This document shows, one piece after another, positions 8,390-29,567 of a stretch of DNA of 64,000 bases (positions within the stretch are counted from its first letter, which is position 1; each line of letters begins with the position of its first letter). The stretch covers positions 3,410,001-3,474,000 of the forward strand of contig NZ_CP101456.1 in the NCBI RefSeq assembly GCF_024362485.1, read 5' to 3'. A model generated the notes under the pieces. The model worked only from the letters and a program-made list of their open reading frames with translations. It did no database searches and was not told where the DNA came from. The stretch is from Natronobeatus ordinarius. GTDB lineage: Archaea; Halobacteriota; Halobacteria; Halobacteriales; Natrialbaceae. A program made the translations under genes and the position numbers.

Positions 8390-8539
8390 ATGGCTACAGT
8401 AGAGCCGATCTCGCTCGAGGAAGGGAAAGACCTCACGCGCAAGACGATGATCTTCGTCATCGTCTGGTCGCTGATCTTTCTCGTCGCGGCGGTCGTCCTG
8501 ATCCTGTTCGGCGGCGGATTGATGGGCATCTTCGTCTGA
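8390..8539 (+). CDS. Small single-span membrane protein
   Basis: 49 residues from ATG 8390, chosen because the TATA box sits at the right distance. A charged N-terminus ('EEGKDLTRK') is followed by one transmembrane helix of about 25 residues ending 'GGGLMGIFV'. Function unknown. Divergent from menB. Similar tiny membrane proteins recur in this window (17578, 43453). Confidence 0.7.
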   Translation: MATVEPISLEEGKDLTRKTMIFVIVWSLIFLVAAVVLILFGGGLMGIFV

Positions 8540-8666
8540 CGGATCGGAACGTACCACTCGGCACCCTCGCGACCGGCCCGCCGTTCGCCGAGTGTTGAGT
8601 GAGAAGGCCGTCCCGCAGCGAGATCCGAGCGATTTTTGAGCCGTCGTTCGTACTGTCAGTCAGTCG

Positions 8667-9494
8667 ATGGGCGAGACCTACTACGACGTGCTCGGCGTCC
8701 CTCCCGACGCCTCCCAGGACGAGATCAGGGCGGCGTACCGCGAGCGCGTTCTCGAGACGCACCCCGACCGGAGCGACGATCCGGACGCCGCCGAGCAGTT
8801 TCAGCGGGTGACGACCGCCGAGGAAGTGCTGAGCGACGAGACCGAGCGGGCGCGGTACGATCGGCTCGGACACGACAGCTACGTCGGGCTGAGCCAGTCC
8901 GGCGGCCGGGCGGGGTTCACCAGTCGCTCGTCCGGCTCGACCGGTTCCGGCTCGAGCCGTCGCGCCAGGCGCGAACCCAGTCACCACGCGCGCCACCGGC
9001 GCAGTCGTGAGCGCCAGACGACCGAGGCGTCGTCGGCCGCCGAGTGGTTCGTCGGCGACGACCAGTCGAACGCGGATCGAACGGACCGTGATGGGCCCGA
9101 GCGAGCGCAGACGTTTGGCGGCTACAGCGTCCACGACTGGGACGACGAGGTCGACCTCGAGGACGATCGCCCGCCGATGGATCAGTCGACGTGGGTCATC
9201 GTCGGCTGTTTCGTTCTGCTGTACCCCGGACTCGTCTACGCGAGCGTCGCGCCCGGGGTCCCCGTGTTCGTCAACGTCACGATCGCCGCCTGTACGCTGT
9301 TGCTCGTCGGCTACCTGCTCACCATGCCCCGTATCGCCATGGCCGCCTTCGGCTTCTGGAGTGCGCTCGTGCCGTTTGGCCTCCCGATTGCCACTGGACT
9401 CGAGCCCCTCTCGCTGCTCGGATCGCTCGCGATCGGCGCCTTCTGGGTTCCGTTCGGCTACGCGGTGGCCGTCTGGTGGGTCCTCCGTCGCTAG
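8667..9494 (+). CDS. Membrane-anchored DnaJ-domain protein
   Basis: 275 residues. The N-terminal J domain (about 4-68) has 'YYDVLGV', the essential HPD tripeptide in 'THPDRSDD', and 'ARYDRLGH'. A Ser/Arg-rich linker (75-130) follows, then an acidic stretch, then a hydrophobic C-terminal third (about 170-272) with roughly four membrane segments. There is no zinc-finger or client-binding part, so this is not the canonical DnaJ chaperone. It probably recruits DnaK/Hsp70 to the membrane. The GTCAGTCAGTCG sequence before the ATG gives no clear ribosome-binding site. Confidence 0.85.
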   Translation: MGETYYDVLGVPPDASQDEIRAAYRERVLETHPDRSDDPDAAEQFQRVTTAEEVLSDETERARYDRLGHDSYVGLSQSGGRAGFTSRSSGSTGSGSSRRARREPSHHARHRRSRERQTTEASSAAEWFVGDDQSNADRTDRDGPERAQTFGGYSVHDWDDEVDLEDDRPPMDQSTWVIVGCFVLLYPGLVYASVAPGVPVFVNVTIAACTLLLVGYLLTMPRIAMAAFGFWSALVPFGLPIATGLEPLSLLGSLAIGAFWVPFGYAVAVWWVLRR

Positions 9495-9625
9495 GTCGAA
9501 GCGTGTGCACGCCGACCATCAGCGGGCATTTCGCCCCCATTTCTGACGAAAAGCCGTTGGTTTTGACACTCCGGATTGAAAGGTGGCCGTGGAGACCAGT
9601 GGCTAGCCGGTGTCTCACCAGGGAG

Positions 9626-19225: not shown

Positions 19226-19501
19226 ATGAGCACGACAGAGACGCTACGCCAGGAGACGACATCGACGGGAACGTGGGAGGACGTCCGAGACCTCCCCCCG
19301 AGTGCGAAACTCGTCGCGAAGGTCCTCGAGTACAACGACACGATGACCCAGCAGGAGATCGCCGAGGAGACGCTGCTGCCCGCACGCACGGTCAGATACG
19401 CACTGAATCGACTCGACGAAGAGAACGTCGTCGAATCTCGCTTTTCCTTCTCCGACGCCCGCAAACGACTCTACTCGCTGTGCATCGAGCCTCGAGACTG
19501 A
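19226..19501 (+). CDS. MarR/TrmB-like winged-helix protein
   Basis: 91 residues, essentially one winged helix: 'SAKLVAKVLEYNDTMTQQEI' (helix 1 and turn), recognition helix region 'LPARTVRYALNRLDEENVV' and a wing 'FSFSDARKRLYSL'. Short single-domain regulators of this kind are common in haloarchaea. Divergent from pan. Target unknown. Confidence 0.8.
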   Translation: MSTTETLRQETTSTGTWEDVRDLPPSAKLVAKVLEYNDTMTQQEIAEETLLPARTVRYALNRLDEENVVESRFSFSDARKRLYSLCIEPRD

Positions 19502-19604: not shown

Positions 19605-20213
19605 ATGAGCGAACGACCTCTCACTGATCCAGCGCTGGATCCGCGACTGGGCGGGCGGCGAGCGTTTCTCACCACGATCGCCACAGTCGGTGCTGGTGCG
19701 CTCGCCGGTTGCCTCGGTGACGACGACGGCGTTCCAGAGCCGATCGCCATCGCGGACGATCACTACTGCCCGATGTGTAACATGGTTGTTGTCAACCACC
19801 CGGGGCCGGCCGGACACGCCTTCTACCCCGAGGAGGCGGAGGCTCGAGCGGAACAGGACGGCGTGGTGCCATACTGTGCGAGCACGTGTGCGTACGAGCA
19901 CTACTTCGAAAAAGAAGAACACGGCCACGAGCCGATCGTGCTCTACCTCACAGACTACTCGAAGGTCGACTGGGAGGTCTACGAACAGGGCGGACAACTG
20001 TTCATCACCGCTCACTTCGCCGCCGAGGACCACACCGCCGCGACCGACCTCGAGTTCGTCGTCGACAGCGACGTGCTGGGGGCGATGGGTGAATCGGCGA
20101 TCGGCTTCTCCGACGCGGCCGACGCCGACGCGTTCGCCGAGGAGTACGGTGGCGGACGCTACGACCACGACTCGATCACGCGTGAGCTAATCGAGAGTCT
20201 CGGATTCGTGTGA
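19605..20213 (+). CDS. nosL: NosL family copper-binding lipoprotein
   Basis: 202 residues from ATG 19605. A twin-arginine region ('GGRRAFL', Arg18-Arg19) and lipobox 'LAGC' (Cys36) predict a Tat-exported lipoprotein. 'CPMCNM' (Cys55, Cys58, Met60) is the Cu(I)-binding NosL signature, and a second cysteine pair follows in 'YCASTCAYEHYF'. NosL delivers copper to N2O reductase in denitrifiers. Directly upstream of the nosD-like gene (62-base gap). No nosZ is present in the window. Confidence 0.92.
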   Translation: MSERPLTDPALDPRLGGRRAFLTTIATVGAGALAGCLGDDDGVPEPIAIADDHYCPMCNMVVVNHPGPAGHAFYPEEAEARAEQDGVVPYCASTCAYEHYFEKEEHGHEPIVLYLTDYSKVDWEVYEQGGQLFITAHFAAEDHTAATDLEFVVDSDVLGAMGESAIGFSDAADADAFAEEYGGGRYDHDSITRELIESLGFV

Positions 20214-20275
20214 ACCGATGACGGGTATACGTTCCGATATCGACGACACCGCACGCAGCGGACGCTACGATACTT

Positions 20276-22198
20276 ATGCGTAACGGAACCCTGATCGTCG
20301 CGTGTTCGCTCCTCGTCGGCGTCCTCTCGCTCGGGGCCGTCGGACTGTTCGTCGCCGACGTCGGCTCGACGACTCCCGAGCCCGTACCGTTCGACGAGAC
20401 GGTCCAGATGGGGACCGAGTTCGACGACGACCTCGAGACCGAACAGCAAGTCGACTTCCCGAACGCACAGGTGTTCTATTCGCAGTACCGAAACGTCGTT
20501 GGCTACCCCGGCGTCGAACGATTCGTCCACGAACACAACCAGGACGGTCACGAACAGCGGTTCGGCTATCCGCTGGCCGTCTACGTCAGCGACTTCAGCG
20601 GAACGGACCTCGAGTTGACCGAGGCGGGCTATCCGCGTGCGACCGGCGACGTCGGGTGGACCGACGCTGAGTCGGCGCTGTTCGTCGTCGGGAGCGACGC
20701 GCGAACCCCCGCCGGTGAGACGGTCGTTCCGTTCTCGAGTCGGGACGACGCCGAGTCTTATGCGGCGGCGTACGGGGGAACCGTGCTGACCTGGGCCGAA
20801 CTGCTCGAGCAGGAGTTTGCAATCGAGGACGCCGCCACCGTCCGCGAGCGCGTCGACGAGCGGCTAGTGGCGGCCGACGAACTGGTCGCGACGGTGCAGG
20901 CAGACAGCGACCGCCCGGTGGCGAGCGTCGTCGGCGAGGACGCTGACACGATCCAGAAGGCGATCGACGCGGCCCCGCCGGAGACGACGGTCGTCGTTCC
21001 AGAGGGTACGTACGAGGAGTTGCTCGAGATCGACCGGCCGGTCACGCTGGCTGGCGACGGTAACGTGACGATCCGCGGCGACGGCGAACACACCGTCATC
21101 GACGTCCGTGCCGACGGTGTGGCCGTCCGGAACCTCCGGATCACCGACGTCGGCGAGACGACGCGCCCGGAAGAACAGGACACCGTGAGCGATAGCGGGA
21201 CCGATGGCGACACCGTCCTCGAGCTGGCGTACGCGGCTGGAGATGCGGGGGTTTCCGTCGACGGCGCGACTCGTGTGCTGGTCGAGGACGTGACGATCGA
21301 GACGCCGGCGAACGGCGTCTTGCTCCGTGACAGTCCGGAGACCGTCGTCCGGAACGTCTCCGTCTACGGCGGCGACGACTGGTCCGAGGCGTACATGGGT
21401 GTCATGACGATGCGCTCGGCAGACGGCGTGATCGAGAACTCCACGTTTCGGGACGGCCGTGATGGAATCTACACGCACCGCTCACACGGACTCGTCTTTC
21501 GGAACAACACCCTCGAGCGAAACCGGATCGGCGTCCACCTGATGTACACCTCCGAGACCGTCATCGCGGACAACGAGGTCAGGAACGCGGAGATCACCGG
21601 GATTCACGTCATGACGAACCCACACCGGAACGCCGTCGTCGGGAACGAGGTCAGAAACAGTCCCACGGGGCTGCGAACGGAAGGCTGGAACTCCTACGTC
21701 GCCGGGAACGTCGTCGTCGACAACGGGCTCGGGATGACGACCGAAGCGGGGAACTCGATCTACGAGGGGAACGTCGTCGCCGGAAACGACGAGGGCATTC
21801 GGGCGACGCACCTGCTGCCGACCAATCGCGTCGTCGGGAACGATTTCCTCGACAACCACGTCCACGCGACCGCCCGGGACGGAACGCTTCGGATCTGGAC
21901 CGAAAACGGCGTCGGCAACTACTGGGGCGGTGCGGTTGGACGCACCGATGGGGTGGTCATCGATCGGTCCTACTCCGCGACCGATCCCATCGACAGTCGC
22001 CTGCACCGAACCGGTGGCACGCCAGCACTCGGTCAGTCGCCGCAGTTCGACGAACTGTCGACCCTCGACGGGACCGTCGCCGGAATGCGCGAGGCGAGTA
22101 TCGTCGACACGGCCCCACGCTGTGCACCGGCGAATCCGGAACTGCTCGAGTCGGCCGGACTGGACGTCGTCCACAACTGTGACGACGTCACGCCCTGA
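20276..22198 (+). CDS. nosD: NosD-like beta-helix protein with N-terminal NosL-like domain
   Basis: 640 residues. An N-terminal signal or anchor helix (5-28) precedes a NosL-like part (about 50-195), recognisable from 'FSSRDDAESYAAAYGGTVLTW', shortened here to its conserved Phe-Ser and Tyr-Gly-Gly positions. The Cys ligands of NosL are absent in this part. From about 205 to 570 is a right-handed beta-helix of repeated 'N-x-V/I' rungs (NNTLERNRIGVHL, NEVRNSPTGLR) ending at 'NYWGG', typical of NosD/CASH proteins. Exported; probably handles copper or surface polysaccharide. Follows nosL on the same strand. Confidence 0.88.
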   Translation: MRNGTLIVACSLLVGVLSLGAVGLFVADVGSTTPEPVPFDETVQMGTEFDDDLETEQQVDFPNAQVFYSQYRNVVGYPGVERFVHEHNQDGHEQRFGYPLAVYVSDFSGTDLELTEAGYPRATGDVGWTDAESALFVVGSDARTPAGETVVPFSSRDDAESYAAAYGGTVLTWAELLEQEFAIEDAATVRERVDERLVAADELVATVQADSDRPVASVVGEDADTIQKAIDAAPPETTVVVPEGTYEELLEIDRPVTLAGDGNVTIRGDGEHTVIDVRADGVAVRNLRITDVGETTRPEEQDTVSDSGTDGDTVLELAYAAGDAGVSVDGATRVLVEDVTIETPANGVLLRDSPETVVRNVSVYGGDDWSEAYMGVMTMRSADGVIENSTFRDGRDGIYTHRSHGLVFRNNTLERNRIGVHLMYTSETVIADNEVRNAEITGIHVMTNPHRNAVVGNEVRNSPTGLRTEGWNSYVAGNVVVDNGLGMTTEAGNSIYEGNVVAGNDEGIRATHLLPTNRVVGNDFLDNHVHATARDGTLRIWTENGVGNYWGGAVGRTDGVVIDRSYSATDPIDSRLHRTGGTPALGQSPQFDELSTLDGTVAGMREASIVDTAPRCAPANPELLESAGLDVVHNCDDVTP

Positions 22199-22253
22199 AT
22201 CCGGGCTCGGGTGTCGTCGCGGGCCGTCACCGATGCCCTCGAGTGATGGCCAG

Positions 22254-22700
22254 TCACCCCTCGTCTTCGTCGCCGCTGCCGGCGTCGGCACGCTCGACGT
22301 GAGCCGTTCGCTCGACGGCGGCGCCAACGTCTGGTCCCTCGAGGACGACCGTCACGGTGTCGGTGACGACGCCGGTCCGATCCCCGGCGACGCTCACGTC
22401 GACGGTCACTGGCTGTGCGAGCGAAAACGGCGGCGTCGGCTCGAACGCGAACGCGTCAGCCTCGAGGACGGTGACGGTCACGTCCTCGAGTCGAGAGTCG
22501 ATGGTGAGCGTCGCGTCCGATTCCGAGACCGGCTCCGAGAGGACGCCACCCTCGAGGGAGAGGGACGCCTCGTCGTCGGCCGTGTCGACGGCTGCTGCGT
22601 GGCCAACGCCGACGCTCGAAACGGCCTCGGTCTCCGCGAGGAGCGCGAGTGACGAGCCACCGGCCAGTGCGGCGAACAGGTGGCGACGGGTCAGTTTCAT
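22254..22700 (-). CDS. Small secreted beta protein, TasA/DUF1102-like N-terminus
   Basis: 148 residues. Twin-arginine signal 'MKLTRRHLFAALAGGSSLAL' then 'VDTADDEASLSLEGG', the form seen at the mature start of haloarchaeal DUF1102/TasA-type secreted proteins. The remainder alternates like a beta sandwich ('LTIDSRLEDVTVTVLEAD') and ends in an acidic Gly-Asp tail. Convergent with nosD and divergent from the large TasA-like/NosL fusion at 23021. Homology to TasA is a weak inference. Confidence 0.6.
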   Translation of the reverse strand: MKLTRRHLFAALAGGSSLALLAETEAVSSVGVGHAAAVDTADDEASLSLEGGVLSEPVSESDATLTIDSRLEDVTVTVLEADAFAFEPTPPFSLAQPVTVDVSVAGDRTGVVTDTVTVVLEGPDVGAAVERTAHVERADAGSGDEDEG

Positions 22701-23020
22701 CGGCCGTCGTCACCTCCGTCCCGTGGCCGAGATAGTCGGCTCCGCTGTGTGGCTCTTTCACGGTGGGCTGTCGGCTCCCATCCCATCGTTTTGCATAACT
22801 CCGATACTACTGGATACCTGTTTTGGCACGACTCTCTAATCGTAAGATTAGATCTACTGTTCATTTTTGCAGGTACGTTAGAGCATTCGTGGAATGCGCC
22901 AAAAATTGTTAATCAATACTGTTCGTCACAGTGAACGTACCATGACGGTGCGAGATACACGGCGGGAGTCTCGGAACCGACCGAAAGAACCGTGTCGGCT
23001 GCCGAACGGGGTGAACTGAG
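22701..23020. other. Divergent intergenic region, AT-rich, no gene seen
   Basis: About 320 bases between two divergent secreted-protein genes. It contains an AT-rich core at 22790-22925, the inverted repeat at 22835-22852 and possible TATA elements near 22905-22915 ('GTTAATCAATAC'). A 25-codon open frame at 22942-23019 ends one base before the next ATG and is not counted as a gene. Confidence 0.5.
22835..22852. repeat. Inverted repeat, possible operator
   Basis: TCTAATC (22835-22841), spacer GTAA, GATTAGA (22846-22852): perfect 7-base arms. It lies in the AT-rich gap between two divergent secreted-protein genes. Confidence 0.5.
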
Positions 23021-24880
23021 ATGGAGCGACGAACGTTCCTGCTGGGGTCGACGGCCGCTGGCGTCGGCTTGCTGTTCGGGACGGGCGCGTTCAGTGCTGC
23101 CGGGACCGGCCACGGCGTCACGATCGAAACCGGCGACGGCTACCTCCACGTCGACGTCAACGAGGAGTACGCGGGTGAGGCGGACAACTACGTCGACGAC
23201 CCCGACGGCGAGCCCCTCTCGCTCACCATCGACGAGGTCAGCGAGCACGGCTGGATTCGCTTCGACGATCTGCTCCGGGTGACGAACACGGGTACGCAAG
23301 ACCTCGGGCTCTACGTCGAGAACCAGGCGTTCCTCGGCCCAGACGGAATCCTCGATTATCGGGTCGACGGAGACTCGATCGTTGGCGAGAGCACCGAGGA
23401 CACCGACGTCGTACTCGAGGGGCTCGACACGGCCGAATCCGACGAGGACAACAGCGTGACGGTGACGGTCAGGGTCGACATGACCGATCACGACGAGTCC
23501 GACCTCCCCGATCCGGACGAGACGACCGTGCTGTTCGTCGCCGGAGAATCCACTGACGAGATCGGCGACGAAGACGACGCTGACGAGCTCGAGCGTGACA
23601 CCACTGCCCCGTCGACTGTCGAGGTCGGCGAGGAGGCCGCTCTCGAGGTCGAACTCGAGAACACGACCGACGAAGCGCACACGACTGAGCTCACCGTTAC
23701 GATCGACGACGCTGTGGAGCACGACGGACAGGTCACCGTCGACGTCGGGACGACGTGGACGGAGTCGTTCGAGTTCGACACGGGCGAGGAGCGGACAATC
23801 GACTGGGAGGTCGAAACCGACGTGGGCGTCGACAGCGGCACGCTCGAGGTCACCGAGGACAGCAACGAGGGCGACGACGGCGGCTACGACCTCGAGGTCG
23901 AGACCACGGGCACGATCACCCCGCGGGAGGTCGCGGAGGTCACGGCGACGATCACCAACGACGCCAGCGAACAGGTGTCGGGGACCGTCAGCCTCGACTT
24001 CGCTCAGCGGCTCCACCCCGGCGACGGACTGGACGTCGACCTCGAGGCCGACGTCGACGCGTATCCCGATCGAGACTTTGCCCAGGGCGATCCGGACTAT
24101 CACTGGCTCGACCGCGGTGAGTACCCACAGGAACACCTCGAGCAGGAGGTGACCGTCGACGCCGACGAGAGCGAGGAGGTGACCTTCGAGGTGCCGGCCG
24201 CCTACAAGAATCTCGAACTGGGCGACCTCACGCTCAAAGAGAACGATCTCGAGGTGACAGTCGACCTCGACGGCGAAATAGAGACCGACGAGGAGACGCT
24301 GACGATCGAGGACGCGACGGTCGAGTGGTTCCAGCCCGACGGCGATAAGTGGTGTCCGGTCTGTAACATGGCGACCGAGATGTACGAAGCCTGGCACGCG
24401 ATCATTTCCCACGAAGACGGTAGTCGCCCCGAGTTCTGTTCGACGGGCTGTGCCGTCCAGTACTGGGTCAAGCCCGGCTGGTTCATCGAGAACATGCGCG
24501 ACGACACGTATCGTGGCATGAATCCGGCGACCGCCGAGGATAACCTGGTAACGATGTGGGCACCGGACTTCACCGACATCTCCGGTGAGGAACTGACCGA
24601 CCATCCGGGCTACGAGGAGTTCATCGACCACCGCGATGGCTACATCGTCCTCGACGACGACACCGTCTCGAAGTTTTCCACGCCGATGGGCGGTGGCAGC
24701 CCGGTCTGTTTCGCGGACTACGACGACGCGGTCGACTACGTCAACGGCGACCTCGAGAATCTGCCCGACGACGTCGACATGAGCAACGTCACCGAGGACG
24801 ACATCGTCACCCTCGAGGAACTCGACGAGGAGAACACCGCGGTTTACGACGGCTCGGGACGAATCACATGGCGGGAGTGA
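23021..24880 (+). CDS. TasA/DUF1102-like secreted protein fused to a NosL module
   Basis: 619 residues. N-terminus 'MERRTFLLGSTAAGVGLL' then 'GTGAFSA' is a signal typical of haloarchaeal TasA/DUF1102 proteins cut by signal peptidase I. Residues about 35-185 fit that beta-sandwich family. Two further beta domains (about 200-290 and 295-430) follow; 'TGTITPREVAEVTATITND' opens the second. The C-terminal ~190 residues are a NosL module: 'CPVCNM' (Cys445, Cys448, Met450), 'FCSTGCAVQYW', 'WAPDFTDISG', 'GGSPVCFADYDDAVDYV'. The last ~320 residues closely match the gene at 24972. Probably an extracellular or filament-forming copper-binding protein. Confidence 0.8.
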   Translation: MERRTFLLGSTAAGVGLLFGTGAFSAAGTGHGVTIETGDGYLHVDVNEEYAGEADNYVDDPDGEPLSLTIDEVSEHGWIRFDDLLRVTNTGTQDLGLYVENQAFLGPDGILDYRVDGDSIVGESTEDTDVVLEGLDTAESDEDNSVTVTVRVDMTDHDESDLPDPDETTVLFVAGESTDEIGDEDDADELERDTTAPSTVEVGEEAALEVELENTTDEAHTTELTVTIDDAVEHDGQVTVDVGTTWTESFEFDTGEERTIDWEVETDVGVDSGTLEVTEDSNEGDDGGYDLEVETTGTITPREVAEVTATITNDASEQVSGTVSLDFAQRLHPGDGLDVDLEADVDAYPDRDFAQGDPDYHWLDRGEYPQEHLEQEVTVDADESEEVTFEVPAAYKNLELGDLTLKENDLEVTVDLDGEIETDEETLTIEDATVEWFQPDGDKWCPVCNMATEMYEAWHAIISHEDGSRPEFCSTGCAVQYWVKPGWFIENMRDDTYRGMNPATAEDNLVTMWAPDFTDISGEELTDHPGYEEFIDHRDGYIVLDDDTVSKFSTPMGGGSPVCFADYDDAVDYVNGDLENLPDDVDMSNVTEDDIVTLEELDEENTAVYDGSGRITWRE

Positions 24881-24971
24881 CTCTTCGAGGTGTCCCGTGC
24901 ACGCGGGAACTTGCTGTTTCGACGCCGGCCGTGAGAGATCACCAACCAGTCTTGCAGTTCGGTACGCTCCC

Positions 24972-26048
24972 ATGAAGCGGCGAACGTTCATTCGTGACAG
25001 TAGTATTGCACTCACGCTATCGGTTGCAGCGGGCTGTCTCGACAGTGATGACGGTTCGCAAGCGAGTGTCGACGGCACACTCGAGGTGACGGCCGACGCG
25101 ACGGGCCCCATCACTCCTCGTGAGCTTGCCGAGGTGACGGTCACGATTCACAACGACACCGACGACCAGGTGTCGGGTACGGTCGGTCTCGAACTCGACC
25201 GAGTCACTCCTGGGGTACAGCCCGGGGAGTTCCCCGAACGAGATTTCGAGGCGGGAGACGCCGACTTTTTCGGGTTCGTGATCGATCGGCCCGACGCGCC
25301 GTTCGAAGCGACAGTGAGCGTCGACGCTGGCGAAGACGAGACGGTCAGCTTCGAGATTCCTGTGTCGTACGAAAACCTCGAGCTGGGCGGGCTCACGCTT
25401 CGGGAGAACGAGCTCGAGGTCGTCGCGGACGTCGGTGGTGAGACCGTCACCGACGAGGTGGCCGTTACGATCGAGGATGCGACAGTCGAGTGGTTCCAGC
25501 CAGACGCCGGGAAGTGGTGTCCGGTCTGTAACATGGTGACCGAAGAGTACGAGGCCTGGCACGCGATGGTGACGCACGCCGACGGCAGCCGTCCGGAGTT
25601 CTGTTCGACGGGTTGTGCCGTCCAGTACTGGGTCAACCCAGACTGGTACCTCGAGTACAACGAAGACGACGACACGTACCGGGGGCTCCACCCCGGTACT
25701 GACGCTGCCGAGCTGGTGACGATGTGGGCGCCCGACTTCACCGACATATCGGGGGAGAGACTCACCGACCACCCCGGCTACGAGGCGTTCATCGACATGC
25801 GAGATGGCTACTTCGTCCTCGACGACGACACCGTCTCGAAGTTTTCGACGCCGATGGGTGGTGGCAGTCCGGTCTGTTTCGCCGACTACGACGACGCGGT
25901 CGACTACGTCGACGGCGAGCTTCCGAACCTCCCCGACGACGTCGACATGGGCAACGTCACCGAGGACGACATCGTCGAACTCGACGACCTCACGAAAGAA
26001 GCCGTGGCAGTCTACGATGGGATGGGACGGTTCTCCTGGCGTGACTGA
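24972..26048 (+). CDS. NosL-type Tat lipoprotein (paralogue A)
   Basis: 358 residues from ATG 24972. 'MKRRTFIRDSS' with lipobox 'AAGC' (Cys22) predicts Tat export and lipid anchoring. A beta domain (about 40-165) precedes the NosL module: 'WCPVCNM' (Cys183, Cys186), 'FCSTGC' (Cys211, Cys215), 'DDDTVSKFSTPMGGGSPVC'. Nearly collinear with the C-terminal half of the upstream protein, so it is a recent duplicate with a lipoprotein signal in place of the TasA-like part. Longer than ordinary NosL. Confidence 0.85.
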   Translation: MKRRTFIRDSSIALTLSVAAGCLDSDDGSQASVDGTLEVTADATGPITPRELAEVTVTIHNDTDDQVSGTVGLELDRVTPGVQPGEFPERDFEAGDADFFGFVIDRPDAPFEATVSVDAGEDETVSFEIPVSYENLELGGLTLRENELEVVADVGGETVTDEVAVTIEDATVEWFQPDAGKWCPVCNMVTEEYEAWHAMVTHADGSRPEFCSTGCAVQYWVNPDWYLEYNEDDDTYRGLHPGTDAAELVTMWAPDFTDISGERLTDHPGYEAFIDMRDGYFVLDDDTVSKFSTPMGGGSPVCFADYDDAVDYVDGELPNLPDDVDMGNVTEDDIVELDDLTKEAVAVYDGMGRFSWRD

Positions 26049-26181
26049 TGTTCTCGGTCGCGTCTGACGTGACTGCTGTTCTCGGTCGCACCACCGACCA
26101 GAACGTCGTCTCGCTTTCGGAGCCATCGGTTGCCACCGGCTCCGTCAGCGAGGAACCAGTATCCGATCAATCGAGGATCCA

Positions 26182-27132
26182 ATGAACAGACGAACCTACC
26201 TCAAGTACAGCGGTATCGCACTGACGACGGCGGCTGCCGGCTGCCTCGACACCGACGGACCCATCGAGGGACAGCTCCGAGTCACCGAATCGCCGGAGCG
26301 GGTGACTATCCGGGAGGCGATTGAGTTCGCCGTTACGGTGGCGAACGAGAGCGACGCGGCCCAGGAAGTAACCGTCACGGCGGACGTAAACGGGGAACGT
26401 CACTCGGAGCCGACCACTGTCGCTGGTGGCGACAGCGAGACGGTGACCGTCGCGGTCCCGACCGGCTACGAGCAAGTCGAGGCGGGAGCGCTCACGCTCG
26501 GGGAAAACGAGTGGATGGTCGAGGCCGACGCGATTTCGGGCTCTGAACGCGGGACGGTTTCGCTGCAAGACGCTTCGGTCGAGTGGTACCAGCCGGACAG
26601 AGAGAAACTCTGTCCCGTCTGTAATATGTTCACAGAACGGTACGAAGGATGGCACGCGCAGGCGACACACGCCGACGGCAGCCGGATCGAGTTCTGTGCG
26701 CTCGGCTGCGCCGTCGAATACTGGGTCCACCCGGAGGCACACGAGTCTGAGATGGGGTACGACGGCAAACACGAGGGAACCGTCGAGAACGAACTGGAGA
26801 CGATCTGGGCCCCAGATTTCACCGACGTGGACCTCGATCCCGACGACGGGAGTTCCTCGGCCCACCCGGGTTGGGAGTCGTTCATCGACATGCGGGATGG
26901 CTACTTCGTCCTCGACGGTCGGACGTTCCGAAAGTTCACGACGCCGATGCCTGGCGGCAGTCCCGTCTGTTTCGCCGACTACGACGACGCGCTCGCGTAC
27001 GTCGACGGCGACCTTCCGAACCTGCCCGACGACGTCGACATGGAAAACGTCACCGAGGACGACGTCGTGACGCTCGAGGAACTCGCCGACTCCGGCGCCG
27101 GCGAACTGTACCGGGAAGAGTACCAGCCGTGA
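26182..27132 (+). CDS. NosL-type Tat lipoprotein (paralogue B)
   Basis: 316 residues. 'MNRRTYLKYSGIAL' and lipobox 'AAGC' (Cys21) predict a Tat lipoprotein. Domain order as in paralogue A: beta domain (30-125), 'LCPVCNM' (Cys144, Cys147), 'FCALGCAVEYW', 'WAPDFTDVDL', 'GGSPVCFADYDDALAYV'. More diverged than the other two, with shorter linker. Downstream gene begins 38 bases later, so it is probably in one operon with the signal peptidase gene. Confidence 0.85.
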   Translation: MNRRTYLKYSGIALTTAAAGCLDTDGPIEGQLRVTESPERVTIREAIEFAVTVANESDAAQEVTVTADVNGERHSEPTTVAGGDSETVTVAVPTGYEQVEAGALTLGENEWMVEADAISGSERGTVSLQDASVEWYQPDREKLCPVCNMFTERYEGWHAQATHADGSRIEFCALGCAVEYWVHPEAHESEMGYDGKHEGTVENELETIWAPDFTDVDLDPDDGSSSAHPGWESFIDMRDGYFVLDGRTFRKFTTPMPGGSPVCFADYDDALAYVDGDLPNLPDDVDMENVTEDDVVTLEELADSGAGELYREEYQP

Positions 27133-27169
27133 GAGCCGATGGTCGTCAGCTGGCATCAGGGGGAACACG

Positions 27170-28309
27170 ATGAGCGACCGTCCAGCCAGGGTGGTGCTTC
27201 AGGTCGTATTGCTGGCGTCGATCGTCGCCGTCGTCGCCGGGCAGCTGCTCGGACAGCCGATCCTGCTCGGCTACGTCACGAGCGACAGTATGTCGCCAAC
27301 GATCGACGACGGTGACGGCTTCGTCGCCGTGCCGACCATCGTGACCGGCGAGGTACAACCGGGCGACGTGATCGTCTACGAGTCGGTCGACGGCGAGCTG
27401 GTGACACACCGTGTCGTCGAGGAGGCGACCGAGGGGTACGTCACTCGCGGCGACGCGAATCCAGTGACCGACCAGGACGAGGGCCATCCGCCCGTTCGGG
27501 ACGAACGCATCGTCGCGACGGCGCTCCAGATCGGTGGAACGGTCGTCACCATCCCCGCCCTGGGTACCGCGGCGGCCGAAGTCGGAGCCGCCACCGAAAC
27601 TACCCAGCGCTGGTTCGCCGATGCGGTCGGACGCGAGCCCGCCGGTGGGGGTTCCAGACTCGCCGCCCTGGTACTGGTGCTGTCGCTCGTCGGGTACGCA
27701 CTCGAGACCGTCCGTGACCGCTCTCATCGGCGACTCGAGACACGTGTCGACGACCTCGGACTCGCTCCCCGTCGTGCAGCCGTCGCCTTCGCGCTGTTCG
27801 TGGTGCTCGTCGCGACGGCGGCGATGGTCGTCCCGGCAGGCACCGGCTCGTTCACCGTCGTCAGCTCGGAGCCAGCACCGGATGCGACGTTGGTAGCGCC
27901 ACCAGGCGAGACTGTCGAGACGTCTTACCGGGTCTCTAACGCCGGCTTCGTTCCGATCGTCACCTACCTCGAGCCGACGGCCCCCGGCGTCGACCTCGAG
28001 CGCGAGACGGTGGCCGTACCGGGACGTGAGAGTTCGTCAGTCGGGGTCTCGCTCACGGCACCCGAAGCCACGGGTCACTACGAACGTACTGTGACCGAGC
28101 GTCGATACCTGCACGTGCTGCCCCGCTCGACGATCGACGAGCTCTACGGCGTCCATCCGTGGGCTCCGCTCGTCGTGATCGTCGCCGTCCTCGGTTGCTG
28201 TGCGTACGTCCTGGGACGGCTCCTGGCAGGGACCGACGATGCGCAGACGGCGCGACGACGGATGCGTGCTCGTCGACGCACCGGGCTGTTTCGATCCGAC
28301 CGACCATGA
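27170..28309 (+). CDS. Archaeal signal peptidase I (Sec11/SipW type) with extra C-terminal domain
   Basis: 379 residues. After one membrane helix (8-28) come the catalytic boxes: 'TSDSMSPT' with Ser40, 'GDVIVY', 'VTHRVVE' with His80 replacing the bacterial Lys, and 'TRGDANPVTD' with Asp95 and Asp101. This Ser/His/Asp arrangement is the archaeal and ER type. A second membrane span (about 165-185), a third, a beta sandwich (235-320) and a C-terminal helix follow. Linked to TasA-like genes, as SipW is in Bacillus. Likely processes the secreted proteins encoded upstream. Confidence 0.9.
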   Translation: MSDRPARVVLQVVLLASIVAVVAGQLLGQPILLGYVTSDSMSPTIDDGDGFVAVPTIVTGEVQPGDVIVYESVDGELVTHRVVEEATEGYVTRGDANPVTDQDEGHPPVRDERIVATALQIGGTVVTIPALGTAAAEVGAATETTQRWFADAVGREPAGGGSRLAALVLVLSLVGYALETVRDRSHRRLETRVDDLGLAPRRAAVAFALFVVLVATAAMVVPAGTGSFTVVSSEPAPDATLVAPPGETVETSYRVSNAGFVPIVTYLEPTAPGVDLERETVAVPGRESSSVGVSLTAPEATGHYERTVTERRYLHVLPRSTIDELYGVHPWAPLVVIVAVLGCCAYVLGRLLAGTDDAQTARRRMRARRRTGLFRSDRP

Positions 28310-28343
28310 CCAACGTTCAAACTGCCGATACGAGGTCGAACCG

Positions 28344-29567
28344 ATGACGAACGAGACACTGCTGCGCTGGCGCGTTCGCCTCGTCGACCGGCGACTGCTC
28401 GCGGTTCTCGCGGTGGTCTGTCTGCTGGGTATCGGCGGCTGGCTGACCTACACGGCACACGTCGATCCCGGTGAACGAACCGAAGAACGGGTGGTCGACG
28501 CGTGGTCGATGACCGGGACGCTCTCCCACGAGGCGGCCGTCGTCGAACCGAACCCGCTCTACGGGGAGTGGCCCGAGGACGCCGACGGGAACGCGACGGC
28601 AGACGCAAACGAGTCAGCCACCAACGGAACCGACGCCGCGACTACTGTGGCTGCGTCCACCGCCGAGACGGCTGTCAAGCCAGTCGTCCTAACCGACCGG
28701 CCGCTGTACTACACCTCCCTCTCGCCGACGGCACGCGGCGCGGTCACCACCAGCTACGACGCCACACGCGGCGAGGACGTGGCCGTCACCCTCGAGCTCG
28801 AGCTCGTCTCCCGGGCGGCCGACGGCGACGTGGTCTACTGGGAGGAGACAGAGCGCCTCGCCTCCGTCCAGGAGACGGACGTCGGTCCCGGTGAGGACGT
28901 CGTCGCCACGTTCGAGGTGAACGTCTCCCAGATCGGTGACCGGATCGACGAAATCGAACGGGGGCTGGGTGCGAGCCCCGGCGAGACCGAGACCTTCGTC
29001 GACGTCGAGACCACGCTCGAGGGCGAGATCGACGACGAACGGGAGTCTGTGGGCCGGACCGACCGGATCGACCTTGCGGTCGAGGAGAACACCTACCGGT
29101 TCGACGCCGACGACCCCTTCGAGGAGACGAGTACCGACACGGAGACGGTGACCGTCACCCGGTCGTCCGGACCGCTTCGAACCGTCGGTGGGCCGTTGCT
29201 GCTCGCCCTCTCGATCGTCGGTATCGGGACGCTCGGCGCGGTACACGCGTTCTGGTGTCCGTCCGACGCCGAGCGAGCGTGGATCGACTACCTCGACGAC
29301 CGTGTGGCGTTCGAGGAGGTGTTCGTCAGGGCCGAGCTGCCGCCAGCGGCGACGAGTGGCCCGGTCGCGGAGGTCCCGACGCTCGCAGAGCTCGCACGGC
29401 TGGCGATCGACGTCGACTCGGTCGTCCTCGAGGAACCGGACCGACTCCGATACCTCGTCCAGCACGAGGGGACGACGTACGTCTACACACCACCTGCAAC
29501 CCCGAACGAGCCGTCGTCGGATCGAGCCGGTCGGACAACAGATGCGGGTGAGAAGCCGGGTCTGTGA
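28344..29567 (+). CDS. DUF5305-type membrane protein
   Basis: 407 residues from ATG 28344, chosen because the upstream part of the frame overlaps the signal peptidase gene. One N-terminal membrane helix ('LLAVLAVVCLLGIGGWL'), a large extracellular beta domain (about 45-285, with 'YYTSLSPTARGAVTTSY'), a second helix ('LLLALSIVGIGTLGAVHAF') and a cytoplasmic C-terminus. In haloarchaea DUF5305 genes usually follow a signal peptidase I gene next to TasA-like genes; function unknown. Last gene of this cluster. Confidence 0.8.
   Translation: MTNETLLRWRVRLVDRRLLAVLAVVCLLGIGGWLTYTAHVDPGERTEERVVDAWSMTGTLSHEAAVVEPNPLYGEWPEDADGNATADANESATNGTDAATTVAASTAETAVKPVVLTDRPLYYTSLSPTARGAVTTSYDATRGEDVAVTLELELVSRAADGDVVYWEETERLASVQETDVGPGEDVVATFEVNVSQIGDRIDEIERGLGASPGETETFVDVETTLEGEIDDERESVGRTDRIDLAVEENTYRFDADDPFEETSTDTETVTVTRSSGPLRTVGGPLLLALSIVGIGTLGAVHAFWCPSDAERAWIDYLDDRVAFEEVFVRAELPPAATSGPVAEVPTLAELARLAIDVDSVVLEEPDRLRYLVQHEGTTYVYTPPATPNEPSSDRAGRTTDAGEKPGL

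Follow-up and report, generated by a model that had tools for sequence, protein, structure and literature searches.

A haloarchaeal gene cluster combining a Tat-signal TafE-like domain with predicted copper-binding NosL domains

A gene cluster of the haloarchaeon Natronobeatus ordinarius raises the question of why a domain of the copper chaperone NosL should be carried at the end of a Tat-signal protein of filament type, next to a signal peptidase and to lipoproteins with the same module. The window analyzed here is a stretch of 64,000 nucleotides (contig NZ_CP101456.1, positions 3,410,001 to 3,474,000, forward strand), and coordinates given without a locus name refer to it. A sequence-only reading had proposed an extracellular filament or surface coat that binds copper; its motifs and positions hold, all the genes it named being open frames where it had placed them. 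The answer that we favor, and to which we give about even weight, is that we are dealing with a specialised paralogue of the Tat-fimbria (tafi) clusters of haloarchaea, one that would display predicted copper-binding NosL domains, with NosL lipoproteins as likely partners. The genes follow one another in the order HTH (19226-19501), NosL_a, NosL-NosD, divergent protein, fusion, NosL_b, NosL_c, signal peptidase I and DUF5305, and those downstream of DUF5305 we take, by eye, to be like Mre11 and Rad50. The features are the following:

19605..20213, plus strand: NosL_a, a Tat lipoprotein with a classical-type NosL (CPMCNM ... YCASTC; PF05573, 121 bits)
20276..22198, plus strand: NosL-NosD fusion (PF05048, 101.5 bits; PF05573, 63 bits, from profile position 23 on)
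22254..22700, minus strand: small divergent Tat-signal protein ('TATglob'), 148 aa, kept in 12 of 12 loci
22892..22911, plus strand: upstream DNA element GAATGCRCCAMAAATTGTTA, the sole site in its own genome at up to 3 mismatches
22942..23019, plus strand: short upstream ORF between the element and the fusion, 25 codons, ATG start, its stop abutting the fusion start
23021..24880, plus strand: TafE-NosL fusion, 619 aa, with a TafE-like domain, two Ig-like beta domains and a NosL domain; Tat signal ERRTFLLG..GTGAFSAAG
24972..26048, plus strand: NosL_b, a Tat lipoprotein with the beta plus NosL module (PF05573, 39 bits)
26182..27132, plus strand: NosL_c, a Tat lipoprotein with the beta plus NosL module (PF05573, 43 bits)
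27170..28309, plus strand: signal peptidase I of the archaeal/SipW type (TIGR02228, 66.9 bits, cut-off 51.85)
28344..29567, plus strand: DUF5305 membrane protein (PF17231, 1.3e-52)

The TafE-NosL fusion and its neighbors

The N-terminal domain of the fusion is matched by the NCBIfam model of TafE (NF052522) over residues 1-173 with an E-value of 9.5e-17, and the match persists at 6.7e-11 when the signal is removed and the mature part is used alone; for the mature part of the fusion homologue from another family the value is 7.3e-13. The score of 61 bits lies well under the equivalog cut-off of 155, which counts against the reading of the cluster as a tafi paralogue and makes the domain a relative of TafE rather than a certified TafE, a family that NCBIfam names 'fimbrial adapter protein'. 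The domain had earlier been described as TasA/DUF1102-like: its filament-type character stands, but the DUF1102 label does not, since neither DUF1102 nor TasA/camelysin gave a match in Pfam at E<=0.1, and the family label thus needs to be corrected to TafE-like. A profile of the N-domain that took in two ordinary Taf proteins from the window genome hit 9p0a, a solved structure named 'Pilin', at 1.3e-20, and one built from the fusions and the two lipoproteins alone reached 0.0065. In the AlphaFold model of the fusion (mean pLDDT 63) the NosL part and the two Ig-like domains are reasonably confident and the N-domain stands at only about pLDDT 50, so that a TasA-type fold rests on sequence homology. 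Structure comparison of this model covered mainly residues 185-433, that is both Ig-like domains, and returned complement/transglutaminase-type, CARDB and RbmA structures, the first Ig-like domain (about 190-280) being CARDB-like and the second (288-433) complement/macroglobulin-like; TasA-type chains were not among the matches listed in this comparison, which lay mainly outside the N-domain. The twin-arginine pair at positions 3-4 is invariant across 14 N-domains and predicts Tat export of the fusion. At two other loci TafE-like N-domains are fused to a right-handed beta-helix (L093:7807-10056 and L094:8061-10436) and flanked by a CARDB-like protein, a signal peptidase and DUF5305, the L093 protein also resembling TafF.

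At the other end of the fusion, PF05573 (NosL) matches residues 440-574 with 31 bits, the curated cut-off being 24 bits. This domain contains the motifs CxxCxM and FCxxGC, and C445, C448, M450, C473 and C477 are invariant among 11 aligned fusions. In clade II bacterial NosL proteins CXXCXM is conserved, its CXM part being the likely Cu(I) site (PMC6530538), and the NosL domain of the fusion is therefore predicted to bind Cu(I) via CxxCxM, perhaps with the help of the FCxxGC cysteines. The claim that three proteins have a common beta plus NosL module is borne out by the PF05573 scores of the fusion and of NosL_b and NosL_c and by how closely the two lipoproteins match the fusion (65% and 49% identity); both adjoin the fusion as Tat lipoproteins with the same copper module, as had been proposed, and CPVCNM, FC(S/A)xGC and GGSPVCFADYDD occur in all three proteins.

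In a tree of 44 NosL domains, the classical NosL_a types stand apart from all other NosL (100/100), and the NosL domains of the fusions and of NosL_b and NosL_c form one clade together with a PQQ-propeller fusion (98/97). Within it the NosL domain of the window fusion groups with NosL_b (99/96) and NosL_c falls in the same 15-row clade (99/98). The simplest reading is that one module was locally duplicated, giving rise to a surface version and to lipoprotein versions. The PQQ beta-propeller protein whose NosL domain belongs to this clade has 861 aa and is encoded at L058:7044-9626 (minus strand), and lipoproteins with two tandem NosL motifs are found in other haloarchaeal families (L087, L088 and L098, the last at 8473-9612). 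Cysteines are absent from the NosL portion of NosL-NosD, which therefore has no copper motif; the same protein scores 195 bits against the NosD model TIGR04247, under its cut-off.

The divergent 148-aa protein gave no family match in Pfam or NCBIfam, and no protein of the cluster, this one included, is matched by the TafA model NF052520. Its alignment with a TafE-type profile (hhalign 95.9%, E 5e-9) is confined to the first ~69 residues, and the protein has the same unusual cleavage region as the fusion. Its AlphaFold model (pLDDT 33) is unusable, and hence we claim no fold for this protein, which had been taken for a second TasA-like one. The presence of an archaeal signal peptidase I and of DUF5305 next to the fusion, which had been recognized from the letters, is supported by their profile scores; the peptidase is also matched by the SipW model (1.6e-11), and its Ser and His are conserved in the alignment (SDSM, VTHRV, RGDANP).

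Recurrence of the cluster and its independence from NosZ

The fusion is carried by 11 of the 125 genomes of the family (Natrialbaceae) and by one genome in another family, G161, in the same order; its confinement to a single genome, which would have spoken against the sequence-only reading, is excluded by these 12 loci in two families, and the recurrence of the arrangement is not due to chance. The divergent protein, the fusion and the signal peptidase occur together in every one of the 12 loci found, and the suggestion of a dedicated signal peptidase thus agrees with the conservation of this enzyme alongside the fusion. DUF5305 adjoins the fusion in eight of them, including the window, and is missing beside four. 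Six loci (the window, L046, L047, L048, L049 and L050) are of a full type, which also contains NosL_a, NosL-NosD and one or two module-bearing lipoproteins; the short loci are without these and have no other nos genes. A remnant of NosL-NosD at L051:11835-11973 makes at least this short locus look like a reduced full one. Natrialba magadii has one copy of the cluster on its plasmid pNMAG02, where the annotation goes no further than NosL, signal peptidase and DUF5305; a gene for transcription factor IIB (L102:3622-4587) lies close to it. The fusion gene of Natrinema hispanicum DSM 18328 (L074:9001-10400, genome G057) has a frameshift in the NosL part, so that, barring a sequencing error, this strain at least can do without the NosL domain.

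An element similar to GAATGCRCCAMAAATTGTTA lies ~123 bases 5' of the fusion start in most loci and is probably a promoter or regulatory site. The frame of the short upstream ORF is open in 12 of 12 cases: it has 25 codons and an abutting stop in eight fusion genes, 27-30 codons in three, and no abutting stop in one. Its peptide is not conserved, the codon positions being equally variable, and we read the ORF as a putative leader that may be translationally coupled to the fusion.

Full-length NosZ is encoded by 40 of the 125 family genomes, and the 11 fusion carriers among them, the window genome included, all lack it; the uncorrected hypergeometric value for this distribution within the family is 0.012, with relatedness not accounted for. 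The sole fusion genome with NosZ is G161, where the gene is on another contig. NosZ is thus absent from 11 of the 12 cluster genomes and is not required by the cluster. Copper nitrite reductase has a strong match only in G161 and was set aside as a client for this reason.

A specialised Tat-fimbria paralogue and its alternatives

The genome of the window also contains an ordinary tafi cluster, separate from the one described here, at about 3,956,700-3,961,900 of the chromosome, with TafE-like, TafA-like, CARDB, signal peptidase and DUF5305 genes. The signal peptidases of the fusion clusters resemble one another at 55-67% and those of tafi clusters at 39-45%, and for DUF5305 the corresponding values are 46-54% and 27-32%. 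The signal peptidase and DUF5305 of the window are nearer to their counterparts in other fusion clusters than to the tafi ones of the same genome, and the two kinds of cluster therefore look like long-separated paralogues. DUF5305 is above cut-off in 114 of the 125 family genomes, suggesting that tafi-type clusters are commonplace.

If the cluster is indeed a specialised tafi paralogue, the fusion would be folded in the cytoplasm and then exported by the Tat pathway, as its signal motif indicates. The signal peptidase of the cluster would cut both the fusion and the divergent 148-aa protein, a step suggested by their conserved linkage and shared cleavage region, and the freed N-terminal beta domain would, by homology to TafE, become part of an assembly at the surface, whether a fibre or the cell-proximal adapter of one, with DUF5305 as a possible assembly partner in the membrane. 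Held out by the two Ig-like domains, the NosL domain would bind Cu(I) through CxxCxM, as its motif implies. In the last and weakest step, copper might go on to NosL_b and NosL_c, anchored in the membrane, or be shared between them and the fusion, and reach cuproenzymes other than N2O reductase, among which we presume terminal oxidases and halocyanins to be candidate recipients. Besides the low TafE score and the poorly modelled N-domain, three observations speak against this reading: no TafA-like major subunit was recognised in the cluster, four loci have no adjoining DUF5305, and the fusion gene of L074 is frameshifted. The most far-reaching version, in which NosL domains make up or decorate a genuine extracellular fibre that collects copper and feeds the membrane lipoproteins for such enzymes, is possible and we regard it as tentative. 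Were the proposal correct, a filament-type secretion system would have been adapted to handle metal at the cell surface, and NosL would act outside N2O reductase maturation; the fusions of TafE-type domains to beta-helices at other loci suggest the principle that TafE domains are general carriers of surface cargo.

The same beta-helix cargo can also be taken to mean that there is no filament, the TafE-like domain being only a head for secretion and anchoring and the fusion a single surface copper chaperone working with the NosL lipoproteins. That the cluster has no TafA homologue and that TafE is by its NCBIfam name an adapter, not the main fibre subunit, fit this alternative, which is a serious but doubtful one, since the fusion is accompanied by a signal peptidase of its own, by DUF5305 and by another protein that shares its cleavage region, as in tafi clusters. 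Rather less probable is that TafE-NosL serves as a minor adapter or tip subunit of the fibres produced by the ordinary tafi locus of the genome, which has a TafA-like gene; the apparent frequency of tafi-type clusters in the family would allow this, but the cluster has a dedicated signal peptidase and in most loci DUF5305 as well, which suggests that its assembly is independent. We consider it unlikely that NosL at the surface serves to soak up excess copper and not to supply it: several copies of one predicted copper-binding module per cluster would suit detoxification, but bacterial NosL is a supply chaperone (PMC6530538). In addition, no copper exporter gene was noticed adjoining the cluster in the gene lists. 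Finally, a cluster for NosZ (N2O reductase) maturation that picked up a fimbrial domain by chance is very improbable and such a role was rejected, because the NosL_a and NosL-NosD genes of the six full-type loci, and a pair near the L049 cluster that we take, by eye, to be nosFY-like, are outweighed by the lack of NosZ in 11 of the 12 cluster genomes and its distribution in the family, by the short loci and by the recurrence of the fusion in two families.

Comparison with known systems

The assumption that no system of this kind had been described does not hold, as Tat-fimbriae (tafi), surface filaments of haloarchaea, are already known (Galeva et al. 2025, iScience 28:111793, as cited in PMC12687288); a version of them bearing NosL was not found in the literature searched. 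Like TasA-TapA-SipW of Bacillus (PMC9674648, PMC10151520), the cluster combines a beta-rich secreted subunit with a dedicated archaeal-type signal peptidase, but it differs in having no TasA sequence match and in its twin-arginine motif and copper domain. With the NosL copper chaperone (PF05573; PMC6530538) it shares the domain and CxxCxM, whereas, unlike usual NosL, the fusion is not a lipoprotein, has the extra FCxxGC cysteines and occurs with NosZ in one genome of 12. NosL-NosD accompanies nosZ in haloarchaea such as Haloferax mediterranei (PMC9240420); the same fusion of NosL to NosD stands in the window cluster without nosZ. The closest likeness is to the tafi cluster of the same genome: a GTGAFS-type cleavage region in the Tat signal, a TafE-like domain, an archaeal signal peptidase and a DUF5305 neighbor are common to both, and the present cluster, without a recognisable TafA or CARDB, is set apart from it by the C-terminal NosL fusion and the NosL lipoproteins.
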